From positions 1 to 49,560 of the IMG/VR virus record IMGVR_UViG_3300006793_000053: a DNA stretch of 49,560 bases; one strand, given 5' to 3'. Shown here piece after piece: positions 13,452 to 33,558 of this stretch. This DNA is from a virus. The notes under the pieces are model-generated. The model did no database searches and was not told where the DNA came from. It was given only the letters and a program-made list of their open reading frames with translations. The position numbers and the translations under genes were made by a program. The stretch's first letter is position 1; each line of letters opens with the position of its first letter.

Positions 13452-13832
13452 CTATTTATATTCGCGCTTGCCGCCTTCGATATCCCGCATTTGTATGTTA
13501 ACGTTACTGCCTACTACGTCTTCGTCGTATGTTTCCATAGCAATTTGCCTACATAAGTCTTGAAACCATTGATCTACTATTTCTTCGTCTGTATCACCTA
13601 CTAAACCGTGTCGTCGCAACATTCCTACAAACGGTTCATTCCAATCTAATTCAAATGCACCATTGCGTGGGTTTTCACTGTCAATCTCTACATCAACAAT
13701 AGTAAACCACGGCTCGCCTTTCTTTGTTGCTTTTTGTTTAGGTGTTAACCTTTTCTTAGTTTCTTTTAATGGTTCCGATGCTATTTCGGTTTCACTACCA
13801 AACATATCTTTTATTTTATCAAATACACTCAT
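13452..13832 (-). CDS. Conserved T4-like phage protein, unknown function
   Basis: A 126-aa protein starting MSVFDKIKDMFGSETEIASE. The ATG at 13832 overlaps the QueE stop (TAATG). The signature block NPRNGAFELDWNEPFV and EEIVDQWFQDLCRQIAMETY is shared by proteins of many marine myoviruses. The N-terminal 40 residues are linker-like and basic. Function unknown. It is the last gene of the queE run before the SGNH-like gene. Confidence 0.65.
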   Translation of the reverse strand: MSVFDKIKDMFGSETEIASEPLKETKKRLTPKQKATKKGEPWFTIVDVEIDSENPRNGAFELDWNEPFVGMLRRHGLVGDTDEEIVDQWFQDLCRQIAMETYDEDVVGSNVNIQMRDIEGGKREYK

Positions 13833-14704
13833 TATGTTCCCCATGCGTTACCAAACAGATCTGAATGTAGCCTTGGGCTATATCTCATACCATGTTTCAT
13901 AACTGCTTCTGCTACTGTGATAGCATTTCCTTTATAATCTTCATATAATCCACCAACTGGCATACAATAAACAGGACACTCTACGCCTGCCTCTTTATAT
14001 ACTGCTACCGCCTTTTCTACTTCTATCATACTTTCTTCACTATCAATAACAAACTTAAAATACATATCAGATCCAGGCACGTTGAAGTATTGTGCCGCTA
14101 CCTCAGATTTAATAGCATCTTCCCATTGTTCGCCGCTAGGAGATAGTTTAGGCGAACAAGACCATGTAAAGAAAGGTCTATTGGATTTTTGCCATTGTAA
14201 CCAAGAGGTGTAGTTTCCCATATATTCGGCAAACTCGCCTTTTAAACTTTTGGTAGTGTTAGTCTCAAATGTAACATTTTTTAAATCTTGCATACGCTCG
14301 TGTGCAAACAAAGCGGGATATATCTTTTGCCACATCATAGGCTCACCACCCGTAATAACCAAATGTATGTCTTGCCCATTTGGCATCATCCAACTACCAT
14401 TAGGAGTTATCTTTAATAAGTTATCTACCAATCCATCTAAATCTATATCAGTTGCTAGATGTTTAAATCGTGTATCCCAACTTGCGTAACTATCACAACC
14501 TGTGCTTACTAGTGGTAAATCATCAAAGTGTGTATACTTAGAAGCATCTACATTAAGACGCTCTTCGCTTAGTTCACCACGTGGCATACCAAATCCTTGA
14601 CATTTTAAGTTACAACCAAATAAACGTAAGAATACAGACGGCACGCCTGTAAACTTACCCTCACCTTGTAAACTATAAAATATTTCAGTGTATCGTATTT
14701 TCAT
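13832..14704 (-). CDS. queE: QueE: 7-carboxy-7-deazaguanine synthase
   Basis: Radical SAM enzyme that contracts 6-carboxytetrahydropterin to 7-carboxy-7-deazaguanine (CDG). The 290-aa protein has the QueE start FYSLQGEGKFTGVPSVFLRL, Cys31 and Cys35 in GCNLKC, the TGGEP SAM motif at 117-121 and a QueE-like C-terminus. The third cluster Cys is displaced: instead of CxxC, an insert of over 30 residues precedes GCDSYASW (Cys70), giving an expanded cluster loop known from divergent QueE. It overlaps the 115-aa gene start by 4 nt and is the end point of the folE-queD-queE run. It needs a reductant; a ferredoxin gene lies at 21988-22329. Confidence 0.9.
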   Translation of the reverse strand: MKIRYTEIFYSLQGEGKFTGVPSVFLRLFGCNLKCQGFGMPRGELSEERLNVDASKYTHFDDLPLVSTGCDSYASWDTRFKHLATDIDLDGLVDNLLKITPNGSWMMPNGQDIHLVITGGEPMMWQKIYPALFAHERMQDLKNVTFETNTTKSLKGEFAEYMGNYTSWLQWQKSNRPFFTWSCSPKLSPSGEQWEDAIKSEVAAQYFNVPGSDMYFKFVIDSEESMIEVEKAVAVYKEAGVECPVYCMPVGGLYEDYKGNAITVAEAVMKHGMRYSPRLHSDLFGNAWGT

Positions 14705-15048
14705 TGTTTCTTTTTCTTTTCTTTATCTGGAGTGGATTTTTTCCAAGCATCTCCAAATAATTCATTTAATGGTGTTGCTTGGTGTTCTTCTCTACTCATA
14801 CCCCAACTAGGTCCTTTTAAAAATCTTTGCCATTGCATTCTAATCTTATCTTCTTCTTCCCTCCACTCTTTCTTTTCTTGTTCTAACTGTTTAGGAAGAC
14901 TATCTACTATTTTAACAGATTCTACTAAATTGTCAACTACTTCTACAATGTTTGGGTGCCTAAACCAACTATAAAACCAGTGTTTTTCAACTAGTTTTTT
15001 GAGACTATCGTTTATTAATTCTTTCGTTTTATCTATATCATCTTGCAT
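14701..15048 (-). CDS. Coiled-coil hypothetical protein in the queE run
   Basis: A 115-aa charged helical protein with a long acidic-basic coiled coil (QLEQEKKEWREEEDKIRMQW) and a C-terminal Lys tract (KKSTPDKEKKKKQ). It overlaps both neighbours: by 11 nt with the amidinotransferase stop and by 4 nt with the queE start. It could be a subunit or scaffold for the modification enzymes; this rests on position only. Confidence 0.55.
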   Translation of the reverse strand: MQDDIDKTKELINDSLKKLVEKHWFYSWFRHPNIVEVVDNLVESVKIVDSLPKQLEQEKKEWREEEDKIRMQWQRFLKGPSWGMSREEHQATPLNELFGDAWKKSTPDKEKKKKQ

Positions 15049-16228
15049 AACTCTCTATGCCTCCCTCTCTGTGTATGTCCAATGTTAGGCAATGCAACCC
15101 GCCGTCCCAAAAGAACCTGTGTCTAAATGGAGTTACAATAGGTTCTACGTTGTGCTTTTTAAACCACTTAAATAGTTCTTCATTTTCAGTTAAGCATAGT
15201 ACAGTCTCAGGATTAACCATTAGTACGTTAACATCCCATACTGTTTCTTCACAAAAGCCTACCCATTCGCTAAACCACTTGTCTACGTAGTCAATAAGTT
15301 CGTCGTTGTGTTCCTCACCAGGTATCCACCACTTGCCTTGAACTTTATCTTTAATTTCTAAAAATGGAGACATGTTAGACCACTGCGTGTCTGGCAAGTA
15401 AAAGACATCCCAGTTTGGAAAATACTTTTTAAATTGCAATGCTTCTCCATTAGATACAAATGCGCCGGGTTTTATAGGTGCGTATATACCATCCGAATGC
15501 CCGTCGTTAAAAGCAGTTATGATATTATAACTGTCTTTAAACTCGTTTCTAAACCATTTATATGTTGTGTTGGGCAATCCATCTAATATAATAGTATCAC
15601 CTAGTTTAACAATGTTAGGCCCTTGGTTCCAAAAATCAAATCTTGTAGTGTTATCGACGCCGTAATCATTAATAACATTGCCTTTATACGATTCTATTTC
15701 CTCATATAAAGTCTCAAAAAATAATACGTTTGCCCTGCCTGGTCCTGCTATTTTATTATCAGTTAAACAACTTAAATCTCGTTGCCTTAAAATATAGAAA
15801 TTGTCATTAACAACAACCTGTTCATCTCTCGGAAACAACGGTGGTTTAGTTAGGAAACCTGGATTTTCATATATGTCGTAGTCTTGTAAGTATTTTTTAA
15901 CTCCGTCGTTGTCCTGCAACTGTGGCATGTCTTGTAACACTCTGTTGACGTCAACTTCTAAATTACGGTCAACAGCATCACCACCAACCTTGTAAATATT
16001 ATATACTTGATCAAAGTCAAACACACGCGGGCGTTTTACGGTCACGCCATAACTTTCTAATACTTCTTTAATGTTCTCTAAATCTTCTATAGTCTCTTCA
16101 GTGATTTGTCGTAGAACATTTTTTACTTTTGTATTATCAACGTAGTCAAAGAACTCCGGACGATAGCAATCGCCTAGCCAACATTCTTTAAGTGGCTGGA
16201 ATCCTGTGTTACAATTGATTACACCCAT
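15038..16228 (-). CDS. Amidinotransferase (AGAT/StrB family)
   Basis: The family transfers an amidino group from arginine to an amine through a covalent Cys intermediate, in creatine, streptomycin or cyanotoxin pathways. The 396-aa protein (family about 340-420) has QGPNIVKLGDTIIL near 202-215, the catalytic His block NDGHSDGIYAP (His244, Asp246) and the C-terminal Cys block GGLHCLTLDIHREG (Cys380). RDEQVVVNDNFYILR near 134-148 fits the family's N-terminal pseudo-repeat. It overlaps queD by 10 nt and lies three genes from queE. The acceptor is unknown; a 7-deazaguanine-linked amine is an attractive but unproven candidate. Confidence 0.85.
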   Translation of the reverse strand: MGVINCNTGFQPLKECWLGDCYRPEFFDYVDNTKVKNVLRQITEETIEDLENIKEVLESYGVTVKRPRVFDFDQVYNIYKVGGDAVDRNLEVDVNRVLQDMPQLQDNDGVKKYLQDYDIYENPGFLTKPPLFPRDEQVVVNDNFYILRQRDLSCLTDNKIAGPGRANVLFFETLYEEIESYKGNVINDYGVDNTTRFDFWNQGPNIVKLGDTIILDGLPNTTYKWFRNEFKDSYNIITAFNDGHSDGIYAPIKPGAFVSNGEALQFKKYFPNWDVFYLPDTQWSNMSPFLEIKDKVQGKWWIPGEEHNDELIDYVDKWFSEWVGFCEETVWDVNVLMVNPETVLCLTENEELFKWFKKHNVEPIVTPFRHRFFWDGGLHCLTLDIHREGGIESYAR

Positions 16229-16695
16229 CCAGTAAACCCTGCTTCAGGGTTATGATAGGTTGAACTGTTCTTGTCATTTTCTCTTGCTTCCACGCTAATA
16301 ACCCATGCTCTGCCGCCTGTTCTTTCACGCAACCATCCATCAGCATAATTGCAGATACGCATAGCAGTGCCTTCCATACCTGGTCCTTCCTCTTGTACAA
16401 TCAACTTACATACACCTGCGTTGTGTAGCATTTGGAATGTTTCCATATATGGATCATCGTGATCAATGACAAACGTATGATCGTAGTTTTCTTCTAACCA
16501 TCTTTTCAGTTCTTTTAAATCGCTGTAGTCTACAAGAAACCCTTCCTTTGTCATAGTGTGTGCGCCAAATGTAAAATGGAAACTACGACTATAGCCGTGT
16601 ATCATAGCGCAGTTTCCATCATGCTTATGCTGTCTATGGGCACATGGAAAGTTGTAAAATGTTTTTGTAGATGTGAATTCGGGTAACCCGCTCAT
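16219..16695 (-). CDS. queD: QueD: 6-carboxytetrahydropterin synthase
   Basis: Converts the FolE product dihydroneopterin triphosphate to 6-carboxy-5,6,7,8-tetrahydropterin, the second step of 7-deazaguanine synthesis. The 158-aa T-fold protein carries CAHRQHKHDGNCAMIHGYSR (residues 18-37): zinc ligands His20 and His33, and the catalytic Cys29. The usual second His of HGH is Tyr35, as in an HGYSRSF subfamily seen in other bacteria and phages. VDYSDLKELKRWLEENYDH matches the dimer-interface helix, and C-terminal EARENDKNSSTY is family-like. It overlaps the amidinotransferase gene. Confidence 0.85.
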   Translation of the reverse strand: MSGLPEFTSTKTFYNFPCAHRQHKHDGNCAMIHGYSRSFHFTFGAHTMTKEGFLVDYSDLKELKRWLEENYDHTFVIDHDDPYMETFQMLHNAGVCKLIVQEEGPGMEGTAMRICNYADGWLRERTGGRAWVISVEARENDKNSSTYHNPEAGFTGWV

Positions 16696-16706
16696 TTATT
16701 TTCTCC

Positions 16707-17258
16707 TTAGTTGCAAATTTCTCTGTTATATAAATCTATTACTGCTTCGTTTGTTTGTGGATTTAGTACCCATCCACCATGCTTATTCATTATATCTCCG
16801 TAATTGACTTTTGGATGTCCTAATATACCAATACAGTGTCCTATTTCGTGTGCTAAAGTATTATATAAAGCACCACATTTGTTTAAATCATTATACATTA
16901 ACGGATTTAAATAAATGTTGCAGTATTGCATCTGTCCATTATGTGTCTTCCATTCCGAGTATGCACAATGATCATTATTGTAGGCAAATCCAGCAAATCT
17001 TATCTGTCCAAGTTTACCATAATTAAAAGTTAAACCGGCACCTTTCCATATAGCACCAGCATTTCGCCATTCTATATTATCGACACTGATGTTAATATTT
17101 TTACTTGGCCATTTTGCACCATACAAACTATTAACATCAACGCATTTAGACACTCCAATTGTAGAAGAACCGCTACACCCTGCTAACAATGCTATAGCGA
17201 ATCCTAGTATTTTAAATAAATTTTTTCTTACCATAAAGAAAGGGGCAGGGCAAGCCAT
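16707..17258 (-). CDS. Metzincin-type metalloprotease lipoprotein
   Basis: A 183-aa secreted or membrane-anchored zinc protease. A hydrophobic N-terminus ends in the lipobox LLAGC (Cys at about residue 28). The zinc motif HEIGHCIGILGH (HExxHxxGxxH, about residues 137-148) is followed by a Met-turn-like YGDIMN, which defines the metzincin fold. Two starts are possible, 17258 (AAGGGG just upstream) or 17234 (MVRKNLFKILG, a cleaner signal peptide). It sits between yhhQ and queD in the deazaguanine run, with no obvious functional link. A lipidated metzincin is unusual in phages; envelope digestion or superinfection exclusion could fit. Confidence 0.8.
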   Translation of the reverse strand: MACPAPFFMVRKNLFKILGFAIALLAGCSGSSTIGVSKCVDVNSLYGAKWPSKNINISVDNIEWRNAGAIWKGAGLTFNYGKLGQIRFAGFAYNNDHCAYSEWKTHNGQMQYCNIYLNPLMYNDLNKCGALYNTLAHEIGHCIGILGHPKVNYGDIMNKHGGWVLNPQTNEAVIDLYNREICN

Positions 17259-17271
17259 ACCCCTTATCCAT

Positions 17272-17892
17272 CTAAGCCTTTACTTTGCCTTGTAAGTATT
17301 TTAATAAAACACCATACGCTGGTAAGAATACAACTAATCCAACGACAATCTTAGTTAACGTTTGGTTAAACGCCACTGCTGATAGCCAATCTGCTGGGTA
17401 GAACGCTGTATAAAAGAATGAATATGTATCAATAATGTTTGCCGCAACTGTTGAGATTGCAGGTGCCGCCCACCACATATCTGTGTACTTGTCGCGAATA
17501 TGTTGAAATACATATACATCTAACGTAGTGCCAACGCCATAGGCAACACCACTTGCTAAACCAATTCTCAATGCTTTTTCCATTGGAGCACCGCCAAGTG
17601 CGATAACTGCAATACTAGCAATAATAGCAGGAATAACTGCCATTGCAACTACTGCTCTACCGGTTTGCTTACCTAACATACGAACTGTTAAGTCTGTAGC
17701 AATAACTACTAACGGAAACGTAAACGCGGCCGCCGCTAGTGGAAACTCACCAAAGAACGGTAAAGCCGCCCCTGGGAATAAGTTAAATTTGAATTGTACC
17801 AAGTAGTTACTGATAGCAATTACAATGGTGTGCATAATCACTAGATTACGTACTAGTGTTTTGTCAACACCTTCTAAATATTTTGATAACAT
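17272..17892 (-). CDS. yhhQ: YhhQ/QueT-like 7-deazaguanine precursor transporter
   Basis: VUT-family inner-membrane transporter; E. coli YhhQ imports preQ0/preQ1. The 206-aa length fits. Recognisable blocks are ISNYLVQFKFN (about 27-37), FTFPLVVIATDLTVRMLG (58-75), TTLDVYVFQHI (121-131), WWAAPAISTVAANIIDTYSF (139-158) and FLPAYGVLLKYL near the C-terminus, with six hydrophobic segments. The Shine-Dalgarno AGGAGG precedes the start. It lies between a phosphoribosyltransferase and the metzincin, in the folE-queD-queE run, and supplies a salvage route that could bypass the missing QueC. Confidence 0.88.
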   Translation of the reverse strand: MLSKYLEGVDKTLVRNLVIMHTIVIAISNYLVQFKFNLFPGAALPFFGEFPLAAAAFTFPLVVIATDLTVRMLGKQTGRAVVAMAVIPAIIASIAVIALGGAPMEKALRIGLASGVAYGVGTTLDVYVFQHIRDKYTDMWWAAPAISTVAANIIDTYSFFYTAFYPADWLSAVAFNQTLTKIVVGLVVFLPAYGVLLKYLQGKVKA

Positions 17893-17927
17893 CTATTTCC
17901 TCCTTAATTGAATAACTAATGTTCTCA

Positions 17928-18470
17928 TTACCAATTCTTATCACTCCACCAATTTTCCCATGGGAAAACTATCCATGAAGGCGATTCTGTCTTATTAATA
18001 ATAAGAGAAGAATAAGATATATTCTTAAAACTACTGCCTTCATTATTAACTAGTGAAGAAAATCGAACATTGGAACCCCACACGCTTTTCCATGGCACTC
18101 TGCCAGGAATTCCTGCGTTTTCCCAATCTTGTTTTATCCAGTTAAACGTTGCTCCGGAATCATTAATATCATCAACAATAAGAATATTGCGAGGATCGAT
18201 GATTTCTTCGTAGGTAAAACTGGAACTGTCTATGCCGACGGCATCTGTCGCCATTTGCATGTTTGTTTCTGGGTCGCCTCCATCTCTTAATCTTACATCC
18301 AATGTATACATGTTTGTTTTAAGATAGTGGCTTAACATTGTAGCAGGAGTTAGTCCTCCCCTTGTGATGCCCACAATGTAATCAGGACGCCAATTACTGT
18401 CATAAATTTGTTGTACTAAATCTAATACTTGTGACTTTATGTCTTGGGTATTTAGATGTATCATTTTCAT
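17928..18470 (-). CDS. Purine-type phosphoribosyltransferase
   Basis: A 180-aa type I PRTase. IVGITRGGLTPATMLSHYL (about 33-51) is the hood and PP-loop region. NILIVDDINDSGATF (about 94-108) is the PRPP-binding signature. The C-terminal WIVFPWENWW resembles the WVxFPWE end of xanthine-guanine/hypoxanthine PRTases. It would join a purine base with PRPP to give a nucleotide. In context it may recycle guanine released by the DpdA-like base exchange, or load a deazapurine base; this is inference. It is the second gene after the folE promoter. Confidence 0.8.
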   Translation of the reverse strand: MKMIHLNTQDIKSQVLDLVQQIYDSNWRPDYIVGITRGGLTPATMLSHYLKTNMYTLDVRLRDGGDPETNMQMATDAVGIDSSSFTYEEIIDPRNILIVDDINDSGATFNWIKQDWENAGIPGRVPWKSVWGSNVRFSSLVNNEGSSFKNISYSSLIINKTESPSWIVFPWENWWSDKNW

Positions 18471-18490
18471 ATGGTATTTAACCTTTTTCG

Positions 18491-19177
18491 CTACCGCGGC
18501 GCAAATTCTTGCTGTAGTTTAATGTTATCAAAGAATTCTTTCTTTGTGCTTGCATCGTCCTTAAATGAGCCACGCAATACAGTAGTTTGTGTTAAACTAG
18601 AATGTGCCATTATGCCACGATTCTCACAGCACCCGTGTGTTGCTTGTATATAAACTCCTACATTTGTAGACCCAGTTGCTTTCTGTATTTCATTAGCAAT
18701 AACATTGTTAAGTTCTTCTTGCAGTGTTCCGCGTCTAGCACACCATTGTGCGATGCGTGTATACTTGCTCAGTCCGATTAGTTTATCTGCGGCAATAATA
18801 CCAATATACGCAACACCTGCTACTGGTTGGTGATGATGTGAGCACATACTTTTTAATTCGCTTCTTACAACAAGCATGCCTTCATAACCTTCTTCTAAAT
18901 GGTTAGGAAACGCTGTTGCGTTAGGCATAGGATCATAACGCCCGCTCATAAGTTCGTTTACGTACATCTTTGCTAAACGCCTAGGTGTGTCTTGGGAGTT
19001 AGGATCGTTATGCCTATCAATAAGTAGACAATCTATTACTTCTTCGAACTTCTCTGTAAGTTCTAAAACAAGTAATTCCTTGTCACTTTCGTTCATATAC
19101 TGAGAAATATTATCGCCTGCCCAAAAACGTCCGTTATCTTCAAATATTCTATTTCTAATTGCTCTACTAATGCTCAT
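18491..19177 (-). CDS. folE: GTP cyclohydrolase I (FolE)
   Basis: Opens GTP to dihydroneopterin triphosphate, the first step of 7-deazaguanine (and folate) synthesis. The 228-aa length is normal. Zinc-binding Cys112 and His115 lie in MCSHHHQPVAG, with the second Cys in ATHGCCENRG (183/184). GIIAADKLIGLSKYTRIAQW and CARRGTLQEEL are strongly conserved family blocks, as is DTPRRLAKMY. It is the first gene after a perfect TTGACA-17-TATAAT promoter and has an AAGGAG Shine-Dalgarno. With QueD and QueE downstream it very likely feeds deazaguanine. Confidence 0.95.
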   Translation of the reverse strand: MSISRAIRNRIFEDNGRFWAGDNISQYMNESDKELLVLELTEKFEEVIDCLLIDRHNDPNSQDTPRRLAKMYVNELMSGRYDPMPNATAFPNHLEEGYEGMLVVRSELKSMCSHHHQPVAGVAYIGIIAADKLIGLSKYTRIAQWCARRGTLQEELNNVIANEIQKATGSTNVGVYIQATHGCCENRGIMAHSSLTQTTVLRGSFKDDASTKKEFFDNIKLQQEFAPR

Positions 19178-19199
19178 ACTTTCTCCTTATTATTATTAT

Positions 19200-19228
19200 A
19201 TTATAAAGGTTATTTAGACAAATGTCAA
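19200..19228 (-). promoter_or_regulatory. Consensus sigma70 promoter of the folE-queE run
   Basis: Minus strand: -35 TTGACA (19223-19228), 17-nt spacer, -10 TATAAT (19200-19205). Both boxes match the consensus exactly. It sits between the glycosyltransferase stop and folE, and probably drives folE through queE (and beyond to 13452). Confidence 0.85.
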
Positions 19229-19238
19229 ATATAATTGA

Positions 19239-20318
19239 TTAAATGGCATTTTTTCTGATCAAATTATGAATCATAATATTAGCATTCAGATAATCTTTCT
19301 TTAAAATTTCTACCTGTTCTTTTAATTCATTTTTCTTAATTATGTCATATCTTGCCATTAAGTCTTCAATGAAGTTCATTAGTTCATCTTTGTGCTTGCG
19401 GTAATTTTCTTCTCCATCAGTCCACACACTAGGATACTTGAATATATCCAAGTACATTTCTTTATAACTTGCTCTGTCAGGAACAATAGGTATTGCTCCT
19501 GCCAAACAGCCTTCCATCATGCTAATACCTAAGTTTTCATGTAGACTGCAACTAAAAACAGCCATTGCTTTTCCCATAACTGCGTAATAATCTTCTTTGC
19601 TTAGATTCATCTTTTGTGTTATGTATACCGTAATCTCTTGGTGATTGCTTATATCCTCCACAATAAATGGTTGTTTATCCTCATTGTATCGATGCGGCCA
19701 CATAATCACAAAGTCTTTGCTAGTATTGTAATATGGCTCTAATTGTGTAATTATAGGGTTATGTGGTTGTCCACTTCTTATTGCTTTTGTCGATCTATGA
19801 TTTAAATTAAGATTACGTAAAAACATTTCTCTATGGAAATTAGTAGCATAATAGTTATAATCCAATGCGTGATACCACGCTTGCTCTTGGACATTACACC
19901 ACGGCTTTGACATTTTAAGACCTAAAATATCAGTCGGATCGTATGCGCCTGCATGCCATATTCCGTGTATTTCTACAGGTATGTCAAGCAGTTCGCTCAT
20001 ATACTTGATGGGCGTTACAATAAAGTTCCATGCGTCAGTGATTAAAAATTTATCGCCGGCTTTGATTTCACCGCGACTAAACATTTCACTTACTCGCGCA
20101 GTTTGGCTTGCCTTGTATTGGTTAGTTTTTCCAAAATCAAGGAACGCACCGCTTGTGGTTTTATCTTCTAAAGTAACTCCATCAATGTTCTTGACTACGT
20201 AATCAGCACCGGTGCGCTGAATTTCTTCTTCAAGAAGTAGTGGAATATTGTCATACCATTGTTTAGTATATCGTTGGTCGATAGGTTCTATGGGTATAAT
20301 GTAAATTGTATTTGTCAT
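19239..20318 (-). CDS. GT-B-type glycosyltransferase
   Basis: A 359-aa protein whose C-terminal half carries SLHENLGISMMEGCLAGAIP followed by IVPDRASYKEMY. This is the EX7E donor-binding pattern of GT4-like GT-B glycosyltransferases. An N-terminal Rossmann-like half holds AGDKFLITDAWNF and VEIHGIWHAGAYDP. Sugar donor and acceptor are unknown. Modified-base glycosylation, as in T4, or virion/host surface glycosylation are both possible. It lies between the folE promoter and a DKH-motif gene, which it overlaps by 4 nt. Confidence 0.7.
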   Translation of the reverse strand: MTNTIYIIPIEPIDQRYTKQWYDNIPLLLEEEIQRTGADYVVKNIDGVTLEDKTTSGAFLDFGKTNQYKASQTARVSEMFSRGEIKAGDKFLITDAWNFIVTPIKYMSELLDIPVEIHGIWHAGAYDPTDILGLKMSKPWCNVQEQAWYHALDYNYYATNFHREMFLRNLNLNHRSTKAIRSGQPHNPIITQLEPYYNTSKDFVIMWPHRYNEDKQPFIVEDISNHQEITVYITQKMNLSKEDYYAVMGKAMAVFSCSLHENLGISMMEGCLAGAIPIVPDRASYKEMYLDIFKYPSVWTDGEENYRKHKDELMNFIEDLMARYDIIKKNELKEQVEILKKDYLNANIMIHNLIRKNAI

Positions 20319-20857
20319 GCCTTAAACCATTCTGGTTGTTGTCGGTTCTTGTTCCACGTAGCAAACGCGGCTTTTTCTCCCATATAAAAATTTCTATATG
20401 ATTGTATTATATCGTCACACTTATATTGCTCTGGCATACATAATGGAAGTTGAGTAAGTGGGCCATCAGGAATACCCGCAGGTGGTGTTTCTAAATAATC
20501 AAACAACTCCCAAGACTTATGCATCTTTTTATACCTATACAAATATTCTAATAACATCTCATGCCATAGTTTAAAATGCCATTTGTAGTTTTCCTTTGTT
20601 TCCATTGTCCACAACGTACAAGGATGTTTGGCGTGTGCTACTTTGTATAGTGTTTTTTCTTTTACTCGATCTGCTAATTTAAAATACTTTACCATACGTT
20701 TGCCAGAAACAGACGGCCGTAACTCTTCAGTTCCTTCTAAAATACGGTGTGCAGTCGATAACATCTGACCGCTCTCAACTGGCATTTTTACAGCATGTTT
20801 ATCACATTGCATCTCTGCAATTTCTCGTTGTGTTTCAGCAACACCAAACATATTCAT
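20315..20857 (-). CDS. Conserved phage protein (DKHxVKMxxE family)
   Basis: A 180-aa protein with the N-terminal signature CDKHAVKMPVESGQMLSTAHR (about residues 18-38). Aromatic-rich helical blocks follow (HPCTLWTMETKENYKWHFKL; LEYLYRYKKMHKSWEL), as does PPAGIPDGPLTQLPLCMPEQ. The family recurs in marine T4-like phages without a firm function. The conserved Asp-Lys-His and His-Pro-Cys could form an active site. It overlaps neighbours by 4 nt at both ends. Confidence 0.65.
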   Translation of the reverse strand: MNMFGVAETQREIAEMQCDKHAVKMPVESGQMLSTAHRILEGTEELRPSVSGKRMVKYFKLADRVKEKTLYKVAHAKHPCTLWTMETKENYKWHFKLWHEMLLEYLYRYKKMHKSWELFDYLETPPAGIPDGPLTQLPLCMPEQYKCDDIIQSYRNFYMGEKAAFATWNKNRQQPEWFKA

Positions 20858-21309
20858 TGATATAAACGCTCTATGTCTTGTTCCTCACACAGGTCACCAT
20901 ATTGTATTTCTATAATACTTAATTCCTTATTAGAAGGATTAATTAATTGATGCCATTCGCCTACTGGTATGTGTAAGTACTCGTGTTTACGTAATACGAT
21001 AGTCCAACAATCATGTTCTATTAACTCTTCTCTCCTAAGAAGGTCTCCACGAGAGCAAGACTCTTGATAGTCGGTCGACAGAATCACGCGAGCAATGCCC
21101 TCATTTACAAGCCAAAATTCACTTCTATGTTTGTGACGTTGGAAACTTAAACAGGTATTAGGCTTTACAACTAACTCTTTAACTTTAGTATTTTTAAAGT
21201 TAGCAATAATGTCGTAAAACCCCCAAACTCGTTCAACTGTGGTTCCCCACCGGCCTACCTTACCTTCTGCGATCATATCTTTGACCGTTTCGATCGGAAC
21301 GATGGTCAT
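20854..21309 (-). CDS. Cupin, mannose-6-phosphate isomerase-like
   Basis: A 151-aa single-domain cupin like the C-terminal isomerase domain of ManC. Motif 1 is LSFQRHKHRSEFWLVNEGIA, and motif 2 is HIPVGEWHQLIN followed by IIEIQYGDLCEEQDI-R. Metal ligands would be the two His and Glu of motif 1 and the His of motif 2. The start at 21309 is preferred over a longer frame from 21447, because AAGGA lies just upstream and the longer form would overlap the preceding gene almost fully. A nucleotide-sugar or sugar-phosphate role would fit the adjacent glycosyltransferase. Confidence 0.75.
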   Translation of the reverse strand: MTIVPIETVKDMIAEGKVGRWGTTVERVWGFYDIIANFKNTKVKELVVKPNTCLSFQRHKHRSEFWLVNEGIARVILSTDYQESCSRGDLLRREELIEHDCWTIVLRKHEYLHIPVGEWHQLINPSNKELSIIEIQYGDLCEEQDIERLYQ

Positions 21310-21511
21310 TTCCTTTTTTATGATACCTAGGCTTAAAATGCGGATATCCTGGCCAATATCTTGCCTTTCCGGATTCTTTCCATCGAAGGAAATCACTGTA
21401 AGGACTCTTTTCCTTATACAAATGTGCCTCATCAAAGACACGCCCAAATTGACGACAGAAGTCGCGATACTCGTCCAAATCTTTAAAGATTTGTTTAACT
21501 GCTGGTTTCAT
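21260..21511 (-). CDS. Small conserved phage protein
   Basis: An 83-aa protein starting MKPAVKQIFKDLDEYRDFCR, with FGRVFDEAHLYKEKSPYSDF and a very basic C-terminus (NDHRSDRNGQRYDRRR). Similar short proteins occur in marine T4-like phages, with unknown role. Its last 50 nt overlap the cupin start in another frame, so the basic tail may be less constrained than the N-terminal part. Confidence 0.55.
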   Translation of the reverse strand: MKPAVKQIFKDLDEYRDFCRQFGRVFDEAHLYKEKSPYSDFLRWKESGKARYWPGYPHFKPRYHKKGNDHRSDRNGQRYDRRR

Positions 21512-21535
21512 AACAGCACCTTTATTTTTATTATA

Positions 21536-21985
21536 TTAGTTAATGTTATCATAAGCGATGATAGGGTAGACGCAATTGCATCCATTTTCGTCATCTTCGC
21601 TTACATCTATTTGAACTTCTCTACCTTTATAACGCTCATTGATTGCTAAGTAGAGATCGTCCGCTATCATTTCACAGGACTTGTAGTCTAATTGTAAAGT
21701 GCCTGTGGAATAAAGATTTTCTAACCATCGTTTAAATTGAATAAATTCAATATCACGATCGTCATGAAACACTTCAATAGCAACTTTGAAGTGGAATGTG
21801 TGTCTATGCGGGTATCCTAAAAACGATACGTCATACTCATCACCCGTTGCTAATGCCGGATCTTCCAATGCGGCGGGATACTTGTGTATTCCTTCTTTGG
21901 TAAACTTTACCCAAATCATTTTAGGCATCTGTTGTAGTTTTTCTCGTAATAGAGCCTTGTGGTGTTCTTCTACGTTAAAGTCCAT
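21536..21985 (-). CDS. Possible T-fold (QueD/PTPS-like) phage protein
   Basis: A 149-aa protein. PHRHTFHFKVAIEVFHDDRD (about residues 59-78) has the His-rich strand pattern of the T-fold, followed by EFIQFKRWLENLYSTG (79-94), similar in position to the QueD interface helix. LDYKSCEMIADDLYLAINER and VEVSEDDENG-like strands follow. Catalytic Cys and full zinc ligands of QueD are not evident, so it may be a non-enzymatic relative. It precedes a cluster with cupin and glycosyltransferase genes and follows the ferredoxin gene. Confidence 0.5.
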   Translation of the reverse strand: MDFNVEEHHKALLREKLQQMPKMIWVKFTKEGIHKYPAALEDPALATGDEYDVSFLGYPHRHTFHFKVAIEVFHDDRDIEFIQFKRWLENLYSTGTLQLDYKSCEMIADDLYLAINERYKGREVQIDVSEDDENGCNCVYPIIAYDNIN

Positions 21986-21987
21986 TT

Positions 21988-22329
21988 TTATTCCTTAAAT
22001 GGTTGTGTTGATATAAGATGTTCTTTGTCTGTTTTGTCACGCCAGTCATCGCTTCCTGGCATTGGACCTTTTGTTTTTGTAATGTTAGGCCACTCTAATG
22101 AATATTTTCTATTAAACTCTAGAAAGTCAATAGAGCCTGTTTGTTTATAATCATTGTCAGGATCAATGGCACCGATTGGGCATTCTGGTTCACAGACACC
22201 GCAATCGATGCACTCATCCGGATGTATGACTAATGTATTCTCTCCTTCGTAAAAGCAATCAACTGGGCAAACTTCTACACAATCAGTTAGTTTGCACTTG
22301 ACACACTTTTCATTTACAATGTAAGTCAT
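21988..22329 (-). CDS. fdxA: 7Fe ferredoxin (FdxA type)
   Basis: A soluble electron carrier. In the 113-aa protein, residues 1-58 match bacterial FdxA-type ferredoxins: [17 protein letters not shown] (3Fe-4S plus 4Fe-4S ligands) and [16 protein letters not shown]. The C-terminal half (residues 60-113) is the usual FdxA tail, which wraps the core. A promoter with exact -35/-10 boxes lies upstream, and the ATG begins only 9 nt after the -10, without a Shine-Dalgarno. In this genome it could reduce the radical SAM enzymes QueE and the 39763-40893 protein. Carriage by a phage is uncommon. Confidence 0.92.
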
Positions 22330-22338
22330 AATATAAAC

Positions 22339-22367
22339 ATTATACTATGACCATTTGATTGTGTCAA
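22339..22367 (-). promoter_or_regulatory. Consensus sigma70 promoter of the ferredoxin unit
   Basis: Minus strand: -35 TTGACA (22362-22367), 17-nt spacer, -10 TATAAT (22339-22344). The -10 ends 9 nt before the fdxA ATG, so the predicted leader is about 2-4 nt. The -35 overlaps the end of the upstream 87-aa gene. Confidence 0.85.
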
Positions 22368-22608
22368 GCAAAGAGTCATGATTTTTAAGGTAGCGTATTT
22401 TAATTTCATCGTTTGATATACCGTCCCAAACAAAATCTTCGCCATATATTAAACCAAGTTGTCCTAAGTGATTGCATATCATCGCAATTGCTTCTACTGT
22501 GCGATAGTTAGCATTTAAAGCACCGCCTTCTACGCTATTTCCGTTTGATTCTCCGATCCATCTATCTCGGCGGGTTATTTTATTTACTTTAAACTTCCCT
22601 AGTTCCAT
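22345..22608 (-). CDS. Hypothetical protein
   Basis: An 87-aa protein. The N-terminus is basic (KFKVNKITRRDRWIGE). The middle AMICNHLGQLGLIYGEDFVW and the C-terminal DEIKIRYLKNHDSLLDTIKW are amphipathic. Not recognised. It lies between clpP and fdxA in the same direction, and its last codons carry the fdxA -35. Confidence 0.5.
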   Translation of the reverse strand: MELGKFKVNKITRRDRWIGESNGNSVEGGALNANYRTVEAIAMICNHLGQLGLIYGEDFVWDGISNDEIKIRYLKNHDSLLDTIKWS

Positions 22609-22635
22609 AATTATTTTTACACTTATGTTACAATC

Positions 22636-23280
22636 TTAATAAACGGACCTAATCTCGTCAGCAATGCCATATTCCACTGCTTCTTCGGCATTTAGCCACA
22701 CATCTTGTGGTGGAAGTAATACTTCACGAATCTTCTTTTCAGAAAGTCCAGTACATTTTTTATAGTGCGTAATCATACGATCTGTTGACATTTCGAACTC
22801 ACGTACAACTGCAAATAGTTCGTGTTCCTTACCACGTGATCCCCAACTATATTGGTGTGATAGAATAGAAGTATTAGGAGTAATAATTCTGTGTCCTTTT
22901 TGCCCTGCCATAAATGTAAGCACACCACATGATGCAATCATTCCTAACCCTACAGTTCTGACAGGAATAGCAGATCCTTTCATAACATCAATAAGAGCAA
23001 AAGCCGCATGTACTGCGCCGCCTGGGCTGTTAATCATAAGTGTTAAATGCTTTGGTCGCTGTTTCTTTGGTAGCATGTTTTTCTCGAGAATAAAGCGAAT
23101 TGCTACCGCACATGATTCCTCGTTAAATCCAGTCATAAACATATGTATATTGTTGTCATATAGTGGGTCACCTGATAATGGTTGACCTCTTGATCCAACT
23201 GGCGGTCCTGCTGGGCCACTCTTGTCTTCGTTAACTTCTTCTTGTGTTTGTACTGTTGCTTTTGCTTTTTTGGCTGCCAT
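22636..23280 (-). CDS. clpP: ClpP-like serine protease
   Basis: Proteolytic core of an AAA+ protease. The 214-aa protein keeps the ClpP fold blocks and triad: oxyanion loop NSPGGAV (84-90), Ser117 in MIASCGVLTF, His142 in ILSHQYSWGSRG and Asp193 in PQDVWLNAEEAVEYGIADEI. The first ~35 residues are a Lys/Gly-rich extension. A ClpA-type unfoldase with an IGF loop is encoded at 44646-46955, so a full machine may be phage-made. It lies directly downstream of the DpdA-like gene. Confidence 0.92.
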   Translation of the reverse strand: MAAKKAKATVQTQEEVNEDKSGPAGPPVGSRGQPLSGDPLYDNNIHMFMTGFNEESCAVAIRFILEKNMLPKKQRPKHLTLMINSPGGAVHAAFALIDVMKGSAIPVRTVGLGMIASCGVLTFMAGQKGHRIITPNTSILSHQYSWGSRGKEHELFAVVREFEMSTDRMITHYKKCTGLSEKKIREVLLPPQDVWLNAEEAVEYGIADEIRSVY

Positions 23281-23291
23281 TCTATTGCTCC

Positions 23292-24779
23292 TTAATCGAA
23301 TAGTTCGTTAAACGCTTTATTTGCGCTGTATTTTTCTTTTACAACAGGTTGCTCCATTCCCATAGGTTCTATACCCATCTCGTCTGCCATTGCTTCAGAG
23401 GTATGTGTGCCTTGTATTCTTGCAAACCATTTGCTGTATTTTTCAATTTCTGCTATAGCATTGTTATAATCTTTATGTTTAAATACGTCATTTACGACAT
23501 CAGTAAACGTTGCTCCATTAGGAGCAACAAGTGCGGACGGATAAATTCCACTGTCGTAACACTCATTTGCTTTTTGTGTTGCTAGTATATGCATGTAGAC
23601 ATTATGTCCCATTTGTAGTGCATAACTAAAACTATCCCAACTCGTTCTCCCCTCCTTTCCTATTTTATTTAAATCACCAGGACCATACGGACAAACATCT
23701 TTCATTTCAAGTAGTTCACTAATCACACTTGGTTCCCATTTAGCATCTGGATAATGTATGTTGTAGTCAAAAATTCTCGTATCCGTTGAATATTTTTTAT
23801 CATCAATAGCCTTGATCATTTTATAAGTCCAATTACCTTTACGTAAATGTTCTGTATGTATACTAGTATATATCGTTCCGTAAGCAGTTGCTAAAAAAGG
23901 CGATGCACAATCATACGACAATGTGATATTAGGATTCACTGTTTCTCGTAAATTACGTTGGAAGCAAGTTAATACAATACTCCATAATAGTTCGCCAGTT
24001 CCTAAGTAATGCATCCATTCTGTTTTTTCTAATAGGCCATCCTCTCTCATTCTAATTAAACGCCGCAATGCTATTTCAACATCGCGTTTGTTAATAGAAC
24101 TTAATGCCCAACCTTCAAAGTCTGCCTTTTCTCCAGTGCTATATGGCTTTACTGCGTCATACCATTCCTCACATTGAGCCCAATTATTACCTTGTAATAC
24201 GTTAAGAAACTTTGTAGCACCTGGCTCTCTTGCTTGGGAAAAGAACTCATTGTTAATAAGAGTTCCTTGTAGACACTTTTGCCAAGTATCAATACCATGT
24301 TTATCAGCATGAGCAACACTAAAAGTAGGTAAATCTAATACCATAGAGTAATCAAATGTGCCTTCTAAAAATCGCAAAACTGTTTCACGAAGTTTATCAG
24401 TCTTTTGATCTACGCCATACGGTTCTAACCATTGTCCTTCCCAAACTCCTTTAGAGATTTGGAAACCACCACTGTCACCAACGAGAACATTGTTTGGAAA
24501 TGAGTCTCTGTTTCTTACCATATCTTCCTTAGGAACGAACTTTTCCAGATCCATATTAGCATGTCCTGCGGAATATAGTGCCCACGGATACTTAAAGTAT
24601 CCTTCATCCATATTAAGAAAGTTTAGTCCTTCGATGCCGTTGGTAAACCTAGACGGAATTCTATCAGTAGGAACAAATTCCTCATATCTTTGTTTCCCTA
24701 TGTATGCGGAATAGAAAGAACTAATCGCTGGCAAGTATGTTGCGTAATCTTTCTGCGTATCCCTAAAATCAGATCTCAT
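23292..24779 (-). CDS. dpdA: DpdA-like DNA guanine transglycosylase
   Basis: A TGT-superfamily protein of 495 aa that would swap guanine in DNA for a 7-deazaguanine base. TGT hallmarks are GDSGGFQ with Asp102, the substrate loop DLPTFS (149-154), LNVLQGNN (192-199), WALSSIN (224-230), LGTGELL (259-265) and the putative nucleophile Asp290 in LSYDCASP. The zinc-site CxCxxCxxxH of bacterial Tgt is not evident, and the sequence is far from host tRNA enzymes, as expected of DpdA. It neighbours clpP and the sliding clamp (TAATG-type overlap), while folE, queD, queE and yhhQ lie 4-11 kb downstream. DNA rather than tRNA specificity is inferred from context. Confidence 0.85.
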   Translation of the reverse strand: MRSDFRDTQKDYATYLPAISSFYSAYIGKQRYEEFVPTDRIPSRFTNGIEGLNFLNMDEGYFKYPWALYSAGHANMDLEKFVPKEDMVRNRDSFPNNVLVGDSGGFQISKGVWEGQWLEPYGVDQKTDKLRETVLRFLEGTFDYSMVLDLPTFSVAHADKHGIDTWQKCLQGTLINNEFFSQAREPGATKFLNVLQGNNWAQCEEWYDAVKPYSTGEKADFEGWALSSINKRDVEIALRRLIRMREDGLLEKTEWMHYLGTGELLWSIVLTCFQRNLRETVNPNITLSYDCASPFLATAYGTIYTSIHTEHLRKGNWTYKMIKAIDDKKYSTDTRIFDYNIHYPDAKWEPSVISELLEMKDVCPYGPGDLNKIGKEGRTSWDSFSYALQMGHNVYMHILATQKANECYDSGIYPSALVAPNGATFTDVVNDVFKHKDYNNAIAEIEKYSKWFARIQGTHTSEAMADEMGIEPMGMEQPVVKEKYSANKAFNELFD

Positions 24780-25510
24780 TACTTACTCTGTGCTGGAAGA
24801 ATGTATCTGTATTTTGCTAATCCGCTATCTACGGTAATCTGCATTGCGCCTTTGTCGCTTAGAGACATGACTTTGTCACCAGTTAGGTTCAGTATTTTTT
24901 GTACAAACTGAACTGGCCATGACCAACTGCCTTTAAGTGCAGTGCCTACGCTAGACTCAAATGTAAATTGTCCTGCGTGTGTGCTGTGGTCACCAAATTC
25001 AAATACCAAGTTTTTGCTATCAGTTTTAACAGTAAACACATCTTCTTCTGAGTTTACTTGTGCTTGCCAAGCAAACTTTTGAATAGAATGTACAGATGGT
25101 TCAAACTCAATATCCCATTCTGATAATTTGAACTTAGCACTTTTTAGTTTGTTTTCAATGATTTCAGCGTTCATAAATCTGTAATCGTTCTGAAAATCTC
25201 CTTCCTTATTCTCAAAATGAATGCCTGTCGGTACTACGACTCCGTTACGTTCTTGCTGATTGATCTCCAATTTTGCTTCTTCTTTGTAAGCGGGAATCTT
25301 TAGCAGGGTATCTAGTTTATTTAGATTAGGCATACCGAACGTTCCGATAAATTCAGCAATAGGATCATGTGTATCAGCAACCATAACAACTGCTCTACCT
25401 TCCTCCATGGATTCAATCATAGTGCCTTCTTCAGTACCAGATACTTTTACAATATCTAAGAAACCTAAAGAATGCGTGTGACTAATAATGTCTGTTAAAA
25501 TGTCTTTCAT
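24779..25510 (-). CDS. 45: Sliding clamp (gp45-like)
   Basis: A 243-aa processivity factor of the T4 gp45 type (T4 about 228 aa). Two repeated beta-alpha-beta halves are visible: residues 1-120 with VVMVADTHDPIAEFIGTFGM and PNLNKLDTLLKIP, and 121-243 with WPVQFVQKILNLTGDKVMSL and a C-terminal ITVDSGLAKYRYILPAQSK. It tethers the polymerase and, in T4, activates late transcription. It starts after a consensus promoter with a TTAGGAG Shine-Dalgarno and overlaps the DpdA-like start by one base. Confidence 0.85.
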   Translation of the reverse strand: MKDILTDIISHTHSLGFLDIVKVSGTEEGTMIESMEEGRAVVMVADTHDPIAEFIGTFGMPNLNKLDTLLKIPAYKEEAKLEINQQERNGVVVPTGIHFENKEGDFQNDYRFMNAEIIENKLKSAKFKLSEWDIEFEPSVHSIQKFAWQAQVNSEEDVFTVKTDSKNLVFEFGDHSTHAGQFTFESSVGTALKGSWSWPVQFVQKILNLTGDKVMSLSDKGAMQITVDSGLAKYRYILPAQSK

Positions 25511-25533: not shown

Positions 25534-25562
25534 ATTATATAATATTTTGTGTATTTTGTCAA
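25534..25562 (-). promoter_or_regulatory. Consensus sigma70 promoter of clamp and dpdA
   Basis: Minus strand: -35 TTGACA (25557-25562), 17-nt spacer, -10 TATAAT (25534-25539). The -35 covers the methyltransferase stop. It probably drives clamp, dpdA and clpP together. Confidence 0.85.
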
Positions 25563-26470
25563 GGCAACGGCTCTTGAGAAACATTTCTAAGGTATCCAAG
25601 ACTTGGAGTGTCCTTAATACCTTGTGGTAGTTCGCCAGGTTTTTGTATGACTGCCCAACTAGTTCTAAATTGGTAATGGCCATCTGATACTAAATCAAAC
25701 CCATTTTTATTTGCCAATCCTTCTAATAGTTCTTTAGTCATATAGCAATAATAGTTACTCTCAAATTGTTCTGCTATTTTTGCTTGCAAACAATCTGCGT
25801 AACTGATAAACGCTATTCCGCCAGGCAACAGTAAGTTGTAAATGCTGGCAAAGTACTTGTCTATCATATCGTAGGGCAGGTATTCGAAGTAGTTCCAACT
25901 AAAAACAAATGAAAATGTTTCCTGTGGTAATTGGCCAAAATTAGCATCTTCGTACTGATATACTCTAACTCTTCTTTTATAAACTTCTTGAAATTGAGCA
26001 GTCACTTCTTCAACAACATCTAAATCCTTACTTGCAATGAAAAAAGGATCCATGCCAGTCATATTTTTAGTCCATATATCACTACGCGGAGTTATTTCCA
26101 AACCAGGAAATTGAAAATTAATTTGCTTTTTAATGTTAGTTAAAACTAATGATTTTAATTCATCGTCCCAATGATTATCGTCTATTTTCTTTAATTTTCC
26201 ATATTTTTTCACTTCATAATTATCATAACTGCGAGAAAGATTCTTTGGTTGAACATTCGAATAAAACTCTTGTTGTAGTTTTTCGTTTCCTGCATCAAGT
26301 TCTTGTTCTAATTCTATAATACTGTTTTCAAAAAGATCAAAAACATTAGTATCTAAATCAATCTTACTCTTCTTAAGAAATTGTTTAATATCTTTGTAGT
26401 TTTTTCTAATATCATCTGTATTGATGTTATCGAGCAACGCTTTTTCTTTAATATAATCTTTTAGTTTCAT
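25559..26470 (-). CDS. SAM-dependent methyltransferase-like protein
   Basis: A 303-aa protein. The C-terminal two thirds resemble a class I methyltransferase: a motif-IV-like FVFSWNYFEYLPYDMIDKYF, then LLLPGGIAFISYADCL (the post-IV strand) and a late ELLEGLANKNGFDLV. The glycine-rich motif I is poorly preserved (EITPRSDIWTKNMTGMDPFF region), so activity is uncertain. The N-terminal ~100 residues form a coiled coil. It overlaps the DNA polymerase stop by 4 nt. Target (sugar, lipid, protein or base) is unknown. Confidence 0.6.
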   Translation of the reverse strand: MKLKDYIKEKALLDNINTDDIRKNYKDIKQFLKKSKIDLDTNVFDLFENSIIELEQELDAGNEKLQQEFYSNVQPKNLSRSYDNYEVKKYGKLKKIDDNHWDDELKSLVLTNIKKQINFQFPGLEITPRSDIWTKNMTGMDPFFIASKDLDVVEEVTAQFQEVYKRRVRVYQYEDANFGQLPQETFSFVFSWNYFEYLPYDMIDKYFASIYNLLLPGGIAFISYADCLQAKIAEQFESNYYCYMTKELLEGLANKNGFDLVSDGHYQFRTSWAVIQKPGELPQGIKDTPSLGYLRNVSQEPLP

Positions 26471-29128: not shown

Positions 29129-29157
29129 ATTATAACAGAAAACTTGTAATTTTACAA
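29129..29157 (-). promoter_or_regulatory. Sigma70-like promoter of DNA polymerase
   Basis: Minus strand: -35 TTGTAA (29152-29157, 4 of 6), 17-nt spacer, -10 TATAAT (29129-29134). The -10 ends 7 nt before the ATG at 29121. Confidence 0.6.
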
Positions 29158-32406: not shown

Positions 32407-32435
32407 TTGACTTATTTTACGATAGCATATATAAT
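32407..32435 (+). promoter_or_regulatory. Sigma70-like promoter of guaC
   Basis: Plus strand: -35 TTGACT (32407-32412), 17-nt spacer, -10 TATAAT (32430-32435). The guaC ATG begins 7 nt later (32443), about where transcription would start. Confidence 0.8.
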
Positions 32436-32442
32436 ATATGTT

Positions 32443-33558
32443 ATGAGAATTGAAACAGATGTTAAGTTAGATTTTAAAGATGTGCTTATTCGTCCCAAGC
32501 GTTCAACGCTAGGATCCCGCAAAGAAGTAAGTTTAAACAGAGAGTTTAGATACAGAAACAGTGATTGGAGGTATAGTACTATTCCAATTATGGCATCCAA
32601 TATGGATGGCGTTGGTACGTTTACTATGGCCGACAAACTTACAGAGTTAAACTTGTTTACGTGTCTTGTAAAAACTTATAATACAAAAGAACTTATTGAT
32701 TACTTTAAAGACGCACATTATAAAAAACTTAATACTGTAGCGATGAGTATTGGAATTACGGATAGTGATTTTGAAAAGTGGCGTGAAGTTAAAAAAAATA
32801 CAGAAGTGCGTTATGTGTGCATTGACGTAGCAAACGGATATTCAGAACGCTTTAGTGAGTTTGTAAAGAAGTTTCGAGATGAATATCCACGCACAACAAT
32901 TATTGCCGGCAACGTAGTGACCGGAGAAATGGCAGAGGAGTTAATATTAAATGGTGCGGATATCGTTAAAGTTGGAATCGGTCCTGGTAGCGTATGTACT
33001 ACTAGGCTCCAAACTGGGGTTGGCTATCCTCAGTTGTCTGCTGTTATTGAATGTGCAGACGCGGCTCATGGGCTTGTTGGGCATATTATTGCTGATGGGG
33101 GATGTACTAACCCTGGTGATATTGCGAAGGCGTTCGCAGGAGGTGCTGACTTTGTGATGCTTGGTGGTATGCTTGCTGGACACGATGAAGGAGAAGGCAA
33201 TATTATTACCAAGCAATACGCAACGAATGAACTCTCTAGTAAGAGCAGGCTGGTAGGCAGTCAATTGTTCGTCACAGAAGAAAAAAAGTTTGTACAGTTT
33301 TATGGTATGAGTAGCACTGCCGCTAATAAAAAACACTTTGGTGGATTAAAAGAATACAGATCTTCTGAAGGAAGGGAAGTACTAGTTCCGTATCGTGGTG
33401 CGGTTGCTAATACAATTCAAGATATTTTAGGTGGAGTGAGAAGTACATGTACTTACGCTGGTGCTAACAAACTTAAACAGTTATCTAAATGTACCACCTT
33501 TGTACGTTGCACACAAACACATAACGGAATATACGAAAAGAATACTATTGGCAATTAA
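32443..33558 (+). CDS. guaC: GMP reductase (GuaC)
   Basis: Reduces GMP to IMP and ammonia with NADPH. The 371-aa protein starts [20 protein letters not shown], nearly identical to the E. coli GuaC start, which fixes the ATG at 32443 rather than the upstream [27 protein letters not shown] and the catalytic loop [12 protein letters not shown] with Cys185 are present. About 20 extra residues ([20 protein letters not shown]) lie in the region that follows [12 protein letters not shown]. It is the only plus-strand gene in the window. Its 3' end overlaps the convergent gene by 4 nt and there is no terminator, so antisense RNA is expected. Leaderless by promoter position. Confidence 0.94.

Follow-up and report, generated by a model that had tools for sequence, protein, structure and literature searches.

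The 49,560-base virus fragment analyzed here (positions 1-49,560 of IMG/VR record IMGVR_UViG_3300006793_000053; hereafter, the window) is from a virus that infects bacteria and encodes a gene kit for exchanging guanines of its DNA for a modified base. The reading we consider probable is one of clamp-tethered deazaguanine modification, in which a DpdA-like enzyme with the fold of tRNA-guanine transglycosylase (TGT) inserts a base derived from 7-carboxy-7-deazaguanine (CDG), perhaps glycosylated. FolE, QueD, and QueE would convert GTP to CDG; a 149-amino acid (aa) protein would divert CDG into another branch, QueC not being found in the window; the DpdA-like enzyme would replace guanines of the DNA with the base so formed; and a disordered linker ending in a polymerase-type C-terminal peptide would tether the enzyme to the phage sliding clamp. 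Docked there, it would carry out the exchange on, or directly behind, newly replicated DNA. A co-travelling glycosyltransferase (GT) may attach a sugar to the inserted base, with about equal chances for and against, and a phosphoribosyltransferase may recycle the released guanine. Between 13832 and 29121 on the minus strand, the genes run from a DNA polymerase through a methyltransferase-like protein, the sliding clamp, the DpdA-like protein, ClpP, a ferredoxin, the 149-aa protein, a cupin, the GT, FolE, the phosphoribosyltransferase, a YhhQ-type transporter, QueD, and an amidinotransferase to QueE, with smaller genes interspersed; the positions given in the original prediction were borne out.

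The DpdA-like protein (495 aa; 23292..24779, minus strand) had no match in Pfam or NCBIfam, nor in a sequence search of the PDB; its tail region weakly matches a PHROG of unknown function, and a PDB profile search with the family returned 2 matches at chance level. An AlphaFold model built from 56 aligned sequences (predicted local distance difference test (pLDDT) 90.1, predicted template modelling score 0.88) gave 11 Foldseek matches at E ≤0.001, every one of them a TGT, and its best VIA-align match was to 2ash (Z 20.5, 304 aligned, root-mean-square deviation 4.4). The catalytic aspartates, D102 (of DSGGFQ) and D290 (of YDCASP), both pointed out in the original prediction, are invariant across the 56 sequences. 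In hhalign the window family matches 6 bacterial TGTs at 92.6%, with D290 falling on the aspartate of FDCVMP. The protein thus has the features of the TGT superfamily (a TGT-type barrel, the DSGG-Q motif, and the second Asp), and its description as a DpdA-like TGT protein beside the clamp is borne out by the model, the structural matches, and the adjoining genes.

While the fold and the two aspartates are those of the tRNA-acting enzyme (PF01702), the 495-aa protein differs from it in lacking a sequence-model match and the CxCxxC zinc motif, and in its added linker and tail. These differences bear on whether the system instead raises queuosine in host tRNA, with the TGT-like protein and the precursors acting on tRNA. 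FolE, QueD, QueE, and the precursor transporter also serve queuosine synthesis, so the gene set accommodates such a role, which we nevertheless regard as very improbable. The PF01702 model matched 0 of the 56 family members at E ≤0.1 and nothing in any of the 12 virus records searched; CxCxxC, present in 5 of 6 bacterial TGTs extracted, does not occur in the window protein; QueC was not found; and the tail is of clamp-binding type. All 6 bacterial genomes with a DpdA-like relative that were tested also encode an ordinary TGT (508-527 bits), so in these genomes the relative is not the housekeeping TGT. Identity as a tRNA-acting TGT was therefore rejected, in keeping with the separation from that enzyme on which the original prediction depended. 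Phage DpdA is recognized as a homologue of TGT whose gene neighbors those for deazaguanine synthesis, which is the arrangement seen here, and we infer that the enzyme inserts 7-deazaguanine into phage DNA. Across the catalytic part, the window family also matches 2 DpdA2-type proteins in hhalign (94.4%).

A possible third TGT-like family lies near the 149-aa gene in phages Ahp1, RHph_I1_18, and phiST (L323:8459-9331, L321:12071-13339, L320:10822-11601). Strings resembling LDNSGFE and WDTSS are common to its members, although those of phiST are harder to make out; hhalign with the window family is weak (32%), and there was no match to DpdA2 or TGT.

The C-terminus of the DpdA-like protein would link it to replication. 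Residues 458-485 (23325..23408, minus strand) form a predicted disordered linker with pLDDT below 50, followed by a clamp-binding-like peptide, KAFNELFD (residues 488-495; 23295..23318, minus strand), overlapping a predicted helix at 486-494. This peptide resembles the end, STFDDLFEL, of the phage's own family B, gp43-like DNA polymerase (26467..29121, minus strand; PDB phmmer match to RB69-type polymerase, E 1.6e-62), which among named phages is nearest (44-48% identity) to its counterparts in large phages, for example Atu_ph07, Phosso, and GAP32. According to a review of T4 late transcription (PMC2988020; also PMC7892883), gp43, gp55, and gp33 all bind the clamp through hydrophobic, acidic, and highly similar C-termini that can stand in for one another, and the gp55 peptide is described as sitting on a divergent, possibly unstructured linker (PMC2988020). 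T4 gp43 ends in SLDFLFG and gp55 in SLDFLYEAND. A hydrophobic and acidic C-terminal peptide on a flexible linker, the mark of a T4-type clamp client, is what the DpdA-like protein carries. The known T4 clients (gp43, gp55, gp33, and the alpha-glucosyltransferase) differ from it in that none exchanges a base; in the alpha-glucosyltransferase no such C-terminal peptide was seen by eye.

The distribution of the tail was followed in a computational survey, which with the structural models yielded the folds, gene sets, tail motif, and QueC exclusion reported here. DpdA-like relatives are abundant in IMG/VR, with at least 594 stretches confirmed in one scan, and the loci retained were the best 80 of 594, 595, and 408 relatives; the sets overlap, some contigs having been fetched by more than one scan. 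The motif [FY]xx[LF][FY] occurs in the tails of 151 of 182 distinct complete viral DpdAs (8.6 expected from shuffled tails) and of 1 of 32 bacterial relatives (0.7 expected), and 167 of 178 polymerase open reading frames have it within their last 18 residues. Tails of enzyme and polymerase are also matched within genomes, both for DpdA2 (TTLDELFE and PSLDDLFE in ACP17, QSLEELFG and SSLESLFG in X1, ASLDSFFD and STLDDFFS in BUCT-ZZ01, NSLDDLFG and SSLEDLFGW in Ps15) and for the window family (NNNDLFGW and NNTDLFDW in Vibrio phage 2.275.O). The DpdA2 of loci L240 and L244 ends in TLDNFFGV. The tail would thus dock the enzyme on the sliding clamp, by analogy with T4; with a polymerase-type peptide on the base-swapping enzyme, modification probably accompanies the synthesis of new DNA.

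Several observations weigh against this reading, here with respect to the tether and below with respect to the sugar. The retained loci are the most window-like, the genomes are interrelated rather than independent, and the counts ignore kinship. The strict motif is missed by 31 of the 182 viral tails, no clamp-type tail was found in the DpdA2 of nt-1, KVP40, or 1.081.O, the DpdA2 of pf16, L247, L249, and L250 has a degraded form at most, and the Phosso DpdA tail is ambiguous. Not every DpdA, then, requires the tail. It might be a relic or bind another partner, with DpdA acting anywhere on DNA and its adjacency to the clamp gene reflecting a conserved replication block, in which 37 of 86 clamp genes lie 177-1379 bases away. 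We consider this unlikely, since the same kind of peptide ends the phages' own polymerases, is matched between clades, and is not a feature of the bacterial relatives; some proteins lacking the usual site moreover end in the variants NPELFGE, NPSLFE, or NFTNLFDE.

The clamp itself (243 aa; 24779..25510, minus strand) is identified by structure. Its AlphaFold2 model (pLDDT 94.6) matches PCNA along its entire length (Foldseek E 2.6e-11; VIA Z 18.5, 224 aligned), giving it a PCNA/gp45-like fold, while by sequence it matches phrog_12062, of unknown function; no match to gp45 was found by sequence or profile (hhalign), and a PDB profile search gave ribosomal proteins. In the window, the clamp and dpdA genes overlap by one base. 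Across 89 viral loci from two scans, the clamp gene lies upstream of dpdA in 86, at spacings of -4 to 1379 bases: exactly the one-base overlap in 24, 100 bases or less in 49, and 177-1379 bases in the remainder. Two of the 3 exceptions are incomplete loci, and in the third, L029, dpdA is called with a start that overlaps the clamp gene. In the wider set that includes the 149-aa and GT scans, a clamp gene precedes 204 of the 207 dpdA genes having more than 900 bases upstream. Among 39 loci from bacterial and archaeal assemblies, a clamp is present in 5 and absent in 32, the other 2 being too short.

The original prediction held that a promoter shared by dpdA, clamp, and clpP placed base exchange next to replication. 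A perfect sigma-70-type consensus (25534..25562, minus strand) stands 23 bases ahead of the clamp start, the next (22339..22367, minus strand) lies past clpP and before the ferredoxin, 149-aa protein, cupin, and GT genes, and a further one (19200..19228, minus strand) precedes folE, queD, and queE. Perfect TTGACA-17-TATAAT sites number 4 on the minus strand, including one at 31750, and sites with at most one mismatch number 9 against 0.95 expected, a count reached in 0 of 100 shuffles. Looser consensus sites in the clamp-dpdA stretch (18 found, 17.2 expected) and terminator-like sites in the clamp-dpdA-clpP stretch (2 found, one of them inside dpdA; 2.3 expected) are at chance level. Since a perfect site precedes the clamp, the next follows clpP, and terminators are at chance level, the shared promoter is plausible, although short of proven. 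The placement beside replication has gained more than was claimed for it, from synteny, the promoter, and the polymerase-like tail together.

Genes for the supply of CDG are present. FolE (GTP cyclohydrolase I; 18491..19177, minus strand) matches Pfam GTP_cyclohydroI at E 1.3e-40, and QueD (16219..16695, minus strand) matches Pfam PTPS at 1.2e-20. QueE, the radical SAM CDG synthase (13832..14704, minus strand), matches phrog_2076 at 5.3e-52, with no match in Pfam and partial, sub-cut-off matches in NCBIfam; a single weak viperin-type match to QueE was all that PADLOC returned. The YhhQ/VUT-type queuosine-precursor transporter (17272..17892, minus strand) matches Vut_1 at 5.8e-21 and TIGR00697 at 89.2 bits (cut-off 50.95). 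The predicted FolE-QueD-QueE route from GTP to CDG therefore holds, and the transporter is present as proposed. The QueD zinc motif, listed in the original prediction, is only partly there: HGY stands in place of HGH, a change seen in 12 of 14 phage QueD aligned, so that the zinc ligands are partly lost while the catalytic Cys and the Asp-His are retained. Guanine recycling is a possible role of the phosphoribosyltransferase (17928..18470, minus strand; Pfam 2.4e-12).

Beyond CDG, the pathway appears to depart from the known one. The 149-aa protein (21536..21985, minus strand; phrog_17812), found in genomes without QueC, is weakly QueD-like: 2 of 28 family members match PTPS (best E 0.023), and hhalign of the family with QueD gives 35.5% over 40 columns, against 0.1% for a control with the clamp family. 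Its histidines H34, H60, H62, and H74 are invariant, and it has a C-terminal ED. Of 26 records matching this protein, the 9 named genomes tested (PA5oct, Phosso, BUCT-ZZ01, ACP17, X1, phiST, RHph_I1_18, Bakedbeans, and Ahp1) have no QueC over the cut-off, a 16.2-bit match in X1 being below it and scored as none. QueC is over the cut-off in all 8 named genomes without the 149-aa protein (nt-1, KVP40, 1.081.O, pf16, 2.275.O, Ps15, CP220, and PhiXhv-12), with best matches of 156-183 bits in 7 of them; in Ps15, which has an annotated QueC, the best match is 30.8 bits. PhiXhv-12 also has a divergent GT. T4, lacking both QueC and the 149-aa protein, is outside these 9 and 8, as are the contigs. Among 25 contigs longer than 100 kb that carry the 149-aa protein, one marginal QueC match, of 24.7 bits across 74 positions, exceeds the cut-off and 3 fall below it (17.7-20.9 bits), the contigs being possibly fragments; a QueC hidden in an unseen part of the genome is thus unlikely.

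In the 149-aa scan, 75 of the 80 rows were used (5 re-found loci were dropped), and all 30 loci with more than 9 kb on both sides contain dpdA. The 149-aa protein accompanies both the window DpdA family and DpdA2, so the branch is marked by this protein and not by a single type of transglycosylase. It occurs with queD, queE, and folE in phiST, with queE and folE in Ahp1, with QueD and folE in RHph_I1_18, and with folE in Bakedbeans. In the last, a Vibrio phage, the 149-aa domain follows an N-terminal stretch of about 250 aa, without assigned function, in a single fused protein (L322:7242-8393). The original prediction overlooked the lack of QueC, the 149-aa protein, and the GT; with these taken into account, CDG-derived or novel bases seem likelier than the dADG, dPreQ0, and dG+ that it also listed.

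The candidate for a subsequent sugar transfer is a 359-aa GT-B type glycosyltransferase (19239..20318, minus strand; PDB 8xsg, E 0.0028), assigned through its family and its linkage to dpdA. The window protein alone matches Glycos_transf_1 weakly (E 0.03, sub-cut-off), 22 of 39 family members match at E ≤0.1, and the BUCT-ZZ01 member exceeds 2 Pfam cut-offs. In PA5oct, ACP17, X1, and BUCT-ZZ01 the GT adjoins dpdA or lies within a few genes of it. In the GT scan (76 of 80 rows used, 4 re-found loci dropped), dpdA is present in 27 of 29 loci with more than 9 kb on both sides, or 28 counting DpdA2, and all 29 hold at least one of dpdA, queE, queD, and folE; locus L257 has polymerase, clamp, 149-aa protein, folE, and queE with its GT and no dpdA found. 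Among the 89 viral loci, genes were found for the 149-aa protein (77 loci), the GT (66), FolE (48), the phosphoribosyltransferase (47), QueE (32), and QueD (11); many loci stop short of the positions of these genes. A second glycosyltransferase (L142:6665-8008, L217:18989-20320, L235:15554-16891) has clamp-type tails: SLEDFFND in BUCT-ZZ01, TNLFEGL in L217, and LSLFEGL in L235. None was found in 4 bacterial relatives of this protein. The tails hint that glycosylation acts at the clamp, and hence on DNA. A DNA glycosyltransferase that binds the clamp has a precedent in T4 alpha-glucosyltransferase, which co-purifies with gp45 (PMC13216743), and a carboxyl on a DNA base is argued in a recent paper to lend itself to varied further chemistry (PMC12783734).

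With respect to the sugar, the opposing points are that the CDG carboxylate is an unusual acceptor, that the window-type GT itself has no clamp-type tail, that the Phosso GT lies about 170 kb from dpdA, that just 8 of 34 clamp-less bacterial loci have the GT, and that, in the T4 study, gp45 binding is not the main determinant of the share of glucosylation by alpha-glucosyltransferase (PMC13216743). In addition, tblastn finds no GT in phiST, RHph_I1_18, Bakedbeans, or Ahp1, all of which have the 149-aa protein and no QueC. These 4 phages favor deazaguanine modification without a sugar, in which the 149-aa protein would be a CDG decarboxylase or something else, the DNA would contain dCDG or dDG, and the GT would have another target; to this alternative, which retains the clamp tether, we give somewhat less than an even chance. 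It leaves the occurrence of the GT near dpdA in 2 DpdA families and 8 bacterial loci, and of dpdA in nearly all full-flank GT loci, less well explained. Both dCDG and dDG are real phage bases. Cui et al. (2023) reportedly described them along with DpdA3 and DpdL, the latter said to be a CDG decarboxylase, and that report may already cover some of what is described here for the 149-aa protein.

Pterin glycosyltransferases exist, and FolE and QueD-like proteins make pterins, so the GT might act on a pterin in a cofactor route unrelated to DNA. We judge this quite improbable, as the 8 bacterial loci with dpdA and GT gave no FolE match within the stretches examined. A broader proposal, to which we give somewhat less than an even chance, is that of a widespread viral class with glycosylated 7-deazaguanine made through a QueC-less 149-aa and GT branch and installed by clamp tethering at the fork, where an amidinotransferase of the window clade may add a guanidino group.

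Five alphaproteobacterial loci (L113, L119, L120, L121, and L125) have a GT adjoining dpdA, with a second GT in L119-L121 and L125. L113 and L119 share the order VUT-like transporter, GT, dpdA (Vut_1 at 24.9 bits, sub-cut-off, in L113; by eye in L119), and both also have a gene of 585-610 aa of unknown function and a recombinase-like gene, recognized by eye.

Deazaguanine in phage DNA is known: DpdA, DpdA2, and protection from restriction have been published (PMC6884629). The DpdA2 phages nt-1 and KVP40 resemble the window in being T4-type and in encoding a TGT-like DNA transglycosylase along with FolE, QueD, and QueE, but they have QueC and lack the 149-aa protein, the GT, and a clamp-type tail. 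Modification levels of 0.1% in nt-1 and 15% dPreQ1 in phage 6E351A are given in PMC12028318. Another close system is that of the jumbo phage PA5oct, which has the same DpdA family and the order clamp, dpdA, GT, 149-aa protein, QueE; the part of its account consulted (PMC7824862) notes a deazaguanine system with synthesis and incorporation, and mentions no tail, clamp link, or GT. A clamp-tethered DpdA, a glycosylated deazaguanine, and a QueC-less branch were not found in the searches made of the open-access (PMC) literature, within which the clamp tail and the QueC-less branch appear to be new. A clamp-docking tail would explain, directly and testably, how a base-exchange enzyme locates and modifies phage DNA; modification would then proceed behind the fork. 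Through the QueC-less branch and its GT, the chemistry of phage DNA could gain a guanine analogue that bears a sugar. Phages carrying these genes can be cultured, among them BUCT-ZZ01 (on Synechococcus PCC 7942), PA5oct and Paride (on Pseudomonas aeruginosa PAO1), and Phosso (on Sinorhizobium).

Other genes of the window may contribute. A cupin, mannose-6-phosphate isomerase-like protein (20854..21447, minus strand; PF01050, 2.5e-24) is a possible source of sugar. The amidinotransferase (15038..16228, minus strand), between queD and queE, is of the Arg:Gly or inosamine-phosphate type (PDB profiles HsvA 1.5e-28, Arg:Gly amidinotransferase 2.3e-23, inosamine-phosphate amidinotransferase 1.5e-21); present in 6 of the 89 viral loci, it was rejected as a general part of the system. 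A relative in Campylobacter phage CP220 sits among radical SAM and sugar-transferase genes, and Stenotrophomonas phage Ps15 has an annotated myo-inositol-1-phosphate synthase within its deazaguanine cluster (L144:3520-4770). Beside queE, a 115-aa protein (window 14701-15048) without a Pfam match contains a non-terminal clamp-tail-like string, PLNELFGDAW. A 191-aa family, with 4 members in the tail scan (L303:8759-9334) and possibly a nuclease by eye, has a clamp-type terminal tail. Genes with IMPDH/GMP reductase and Glu/Leu/Phe/Val-dehydrogenase domains (window 32407-33558 and 29152-30264) lie near the system and might serve purine and nitrogen supply.

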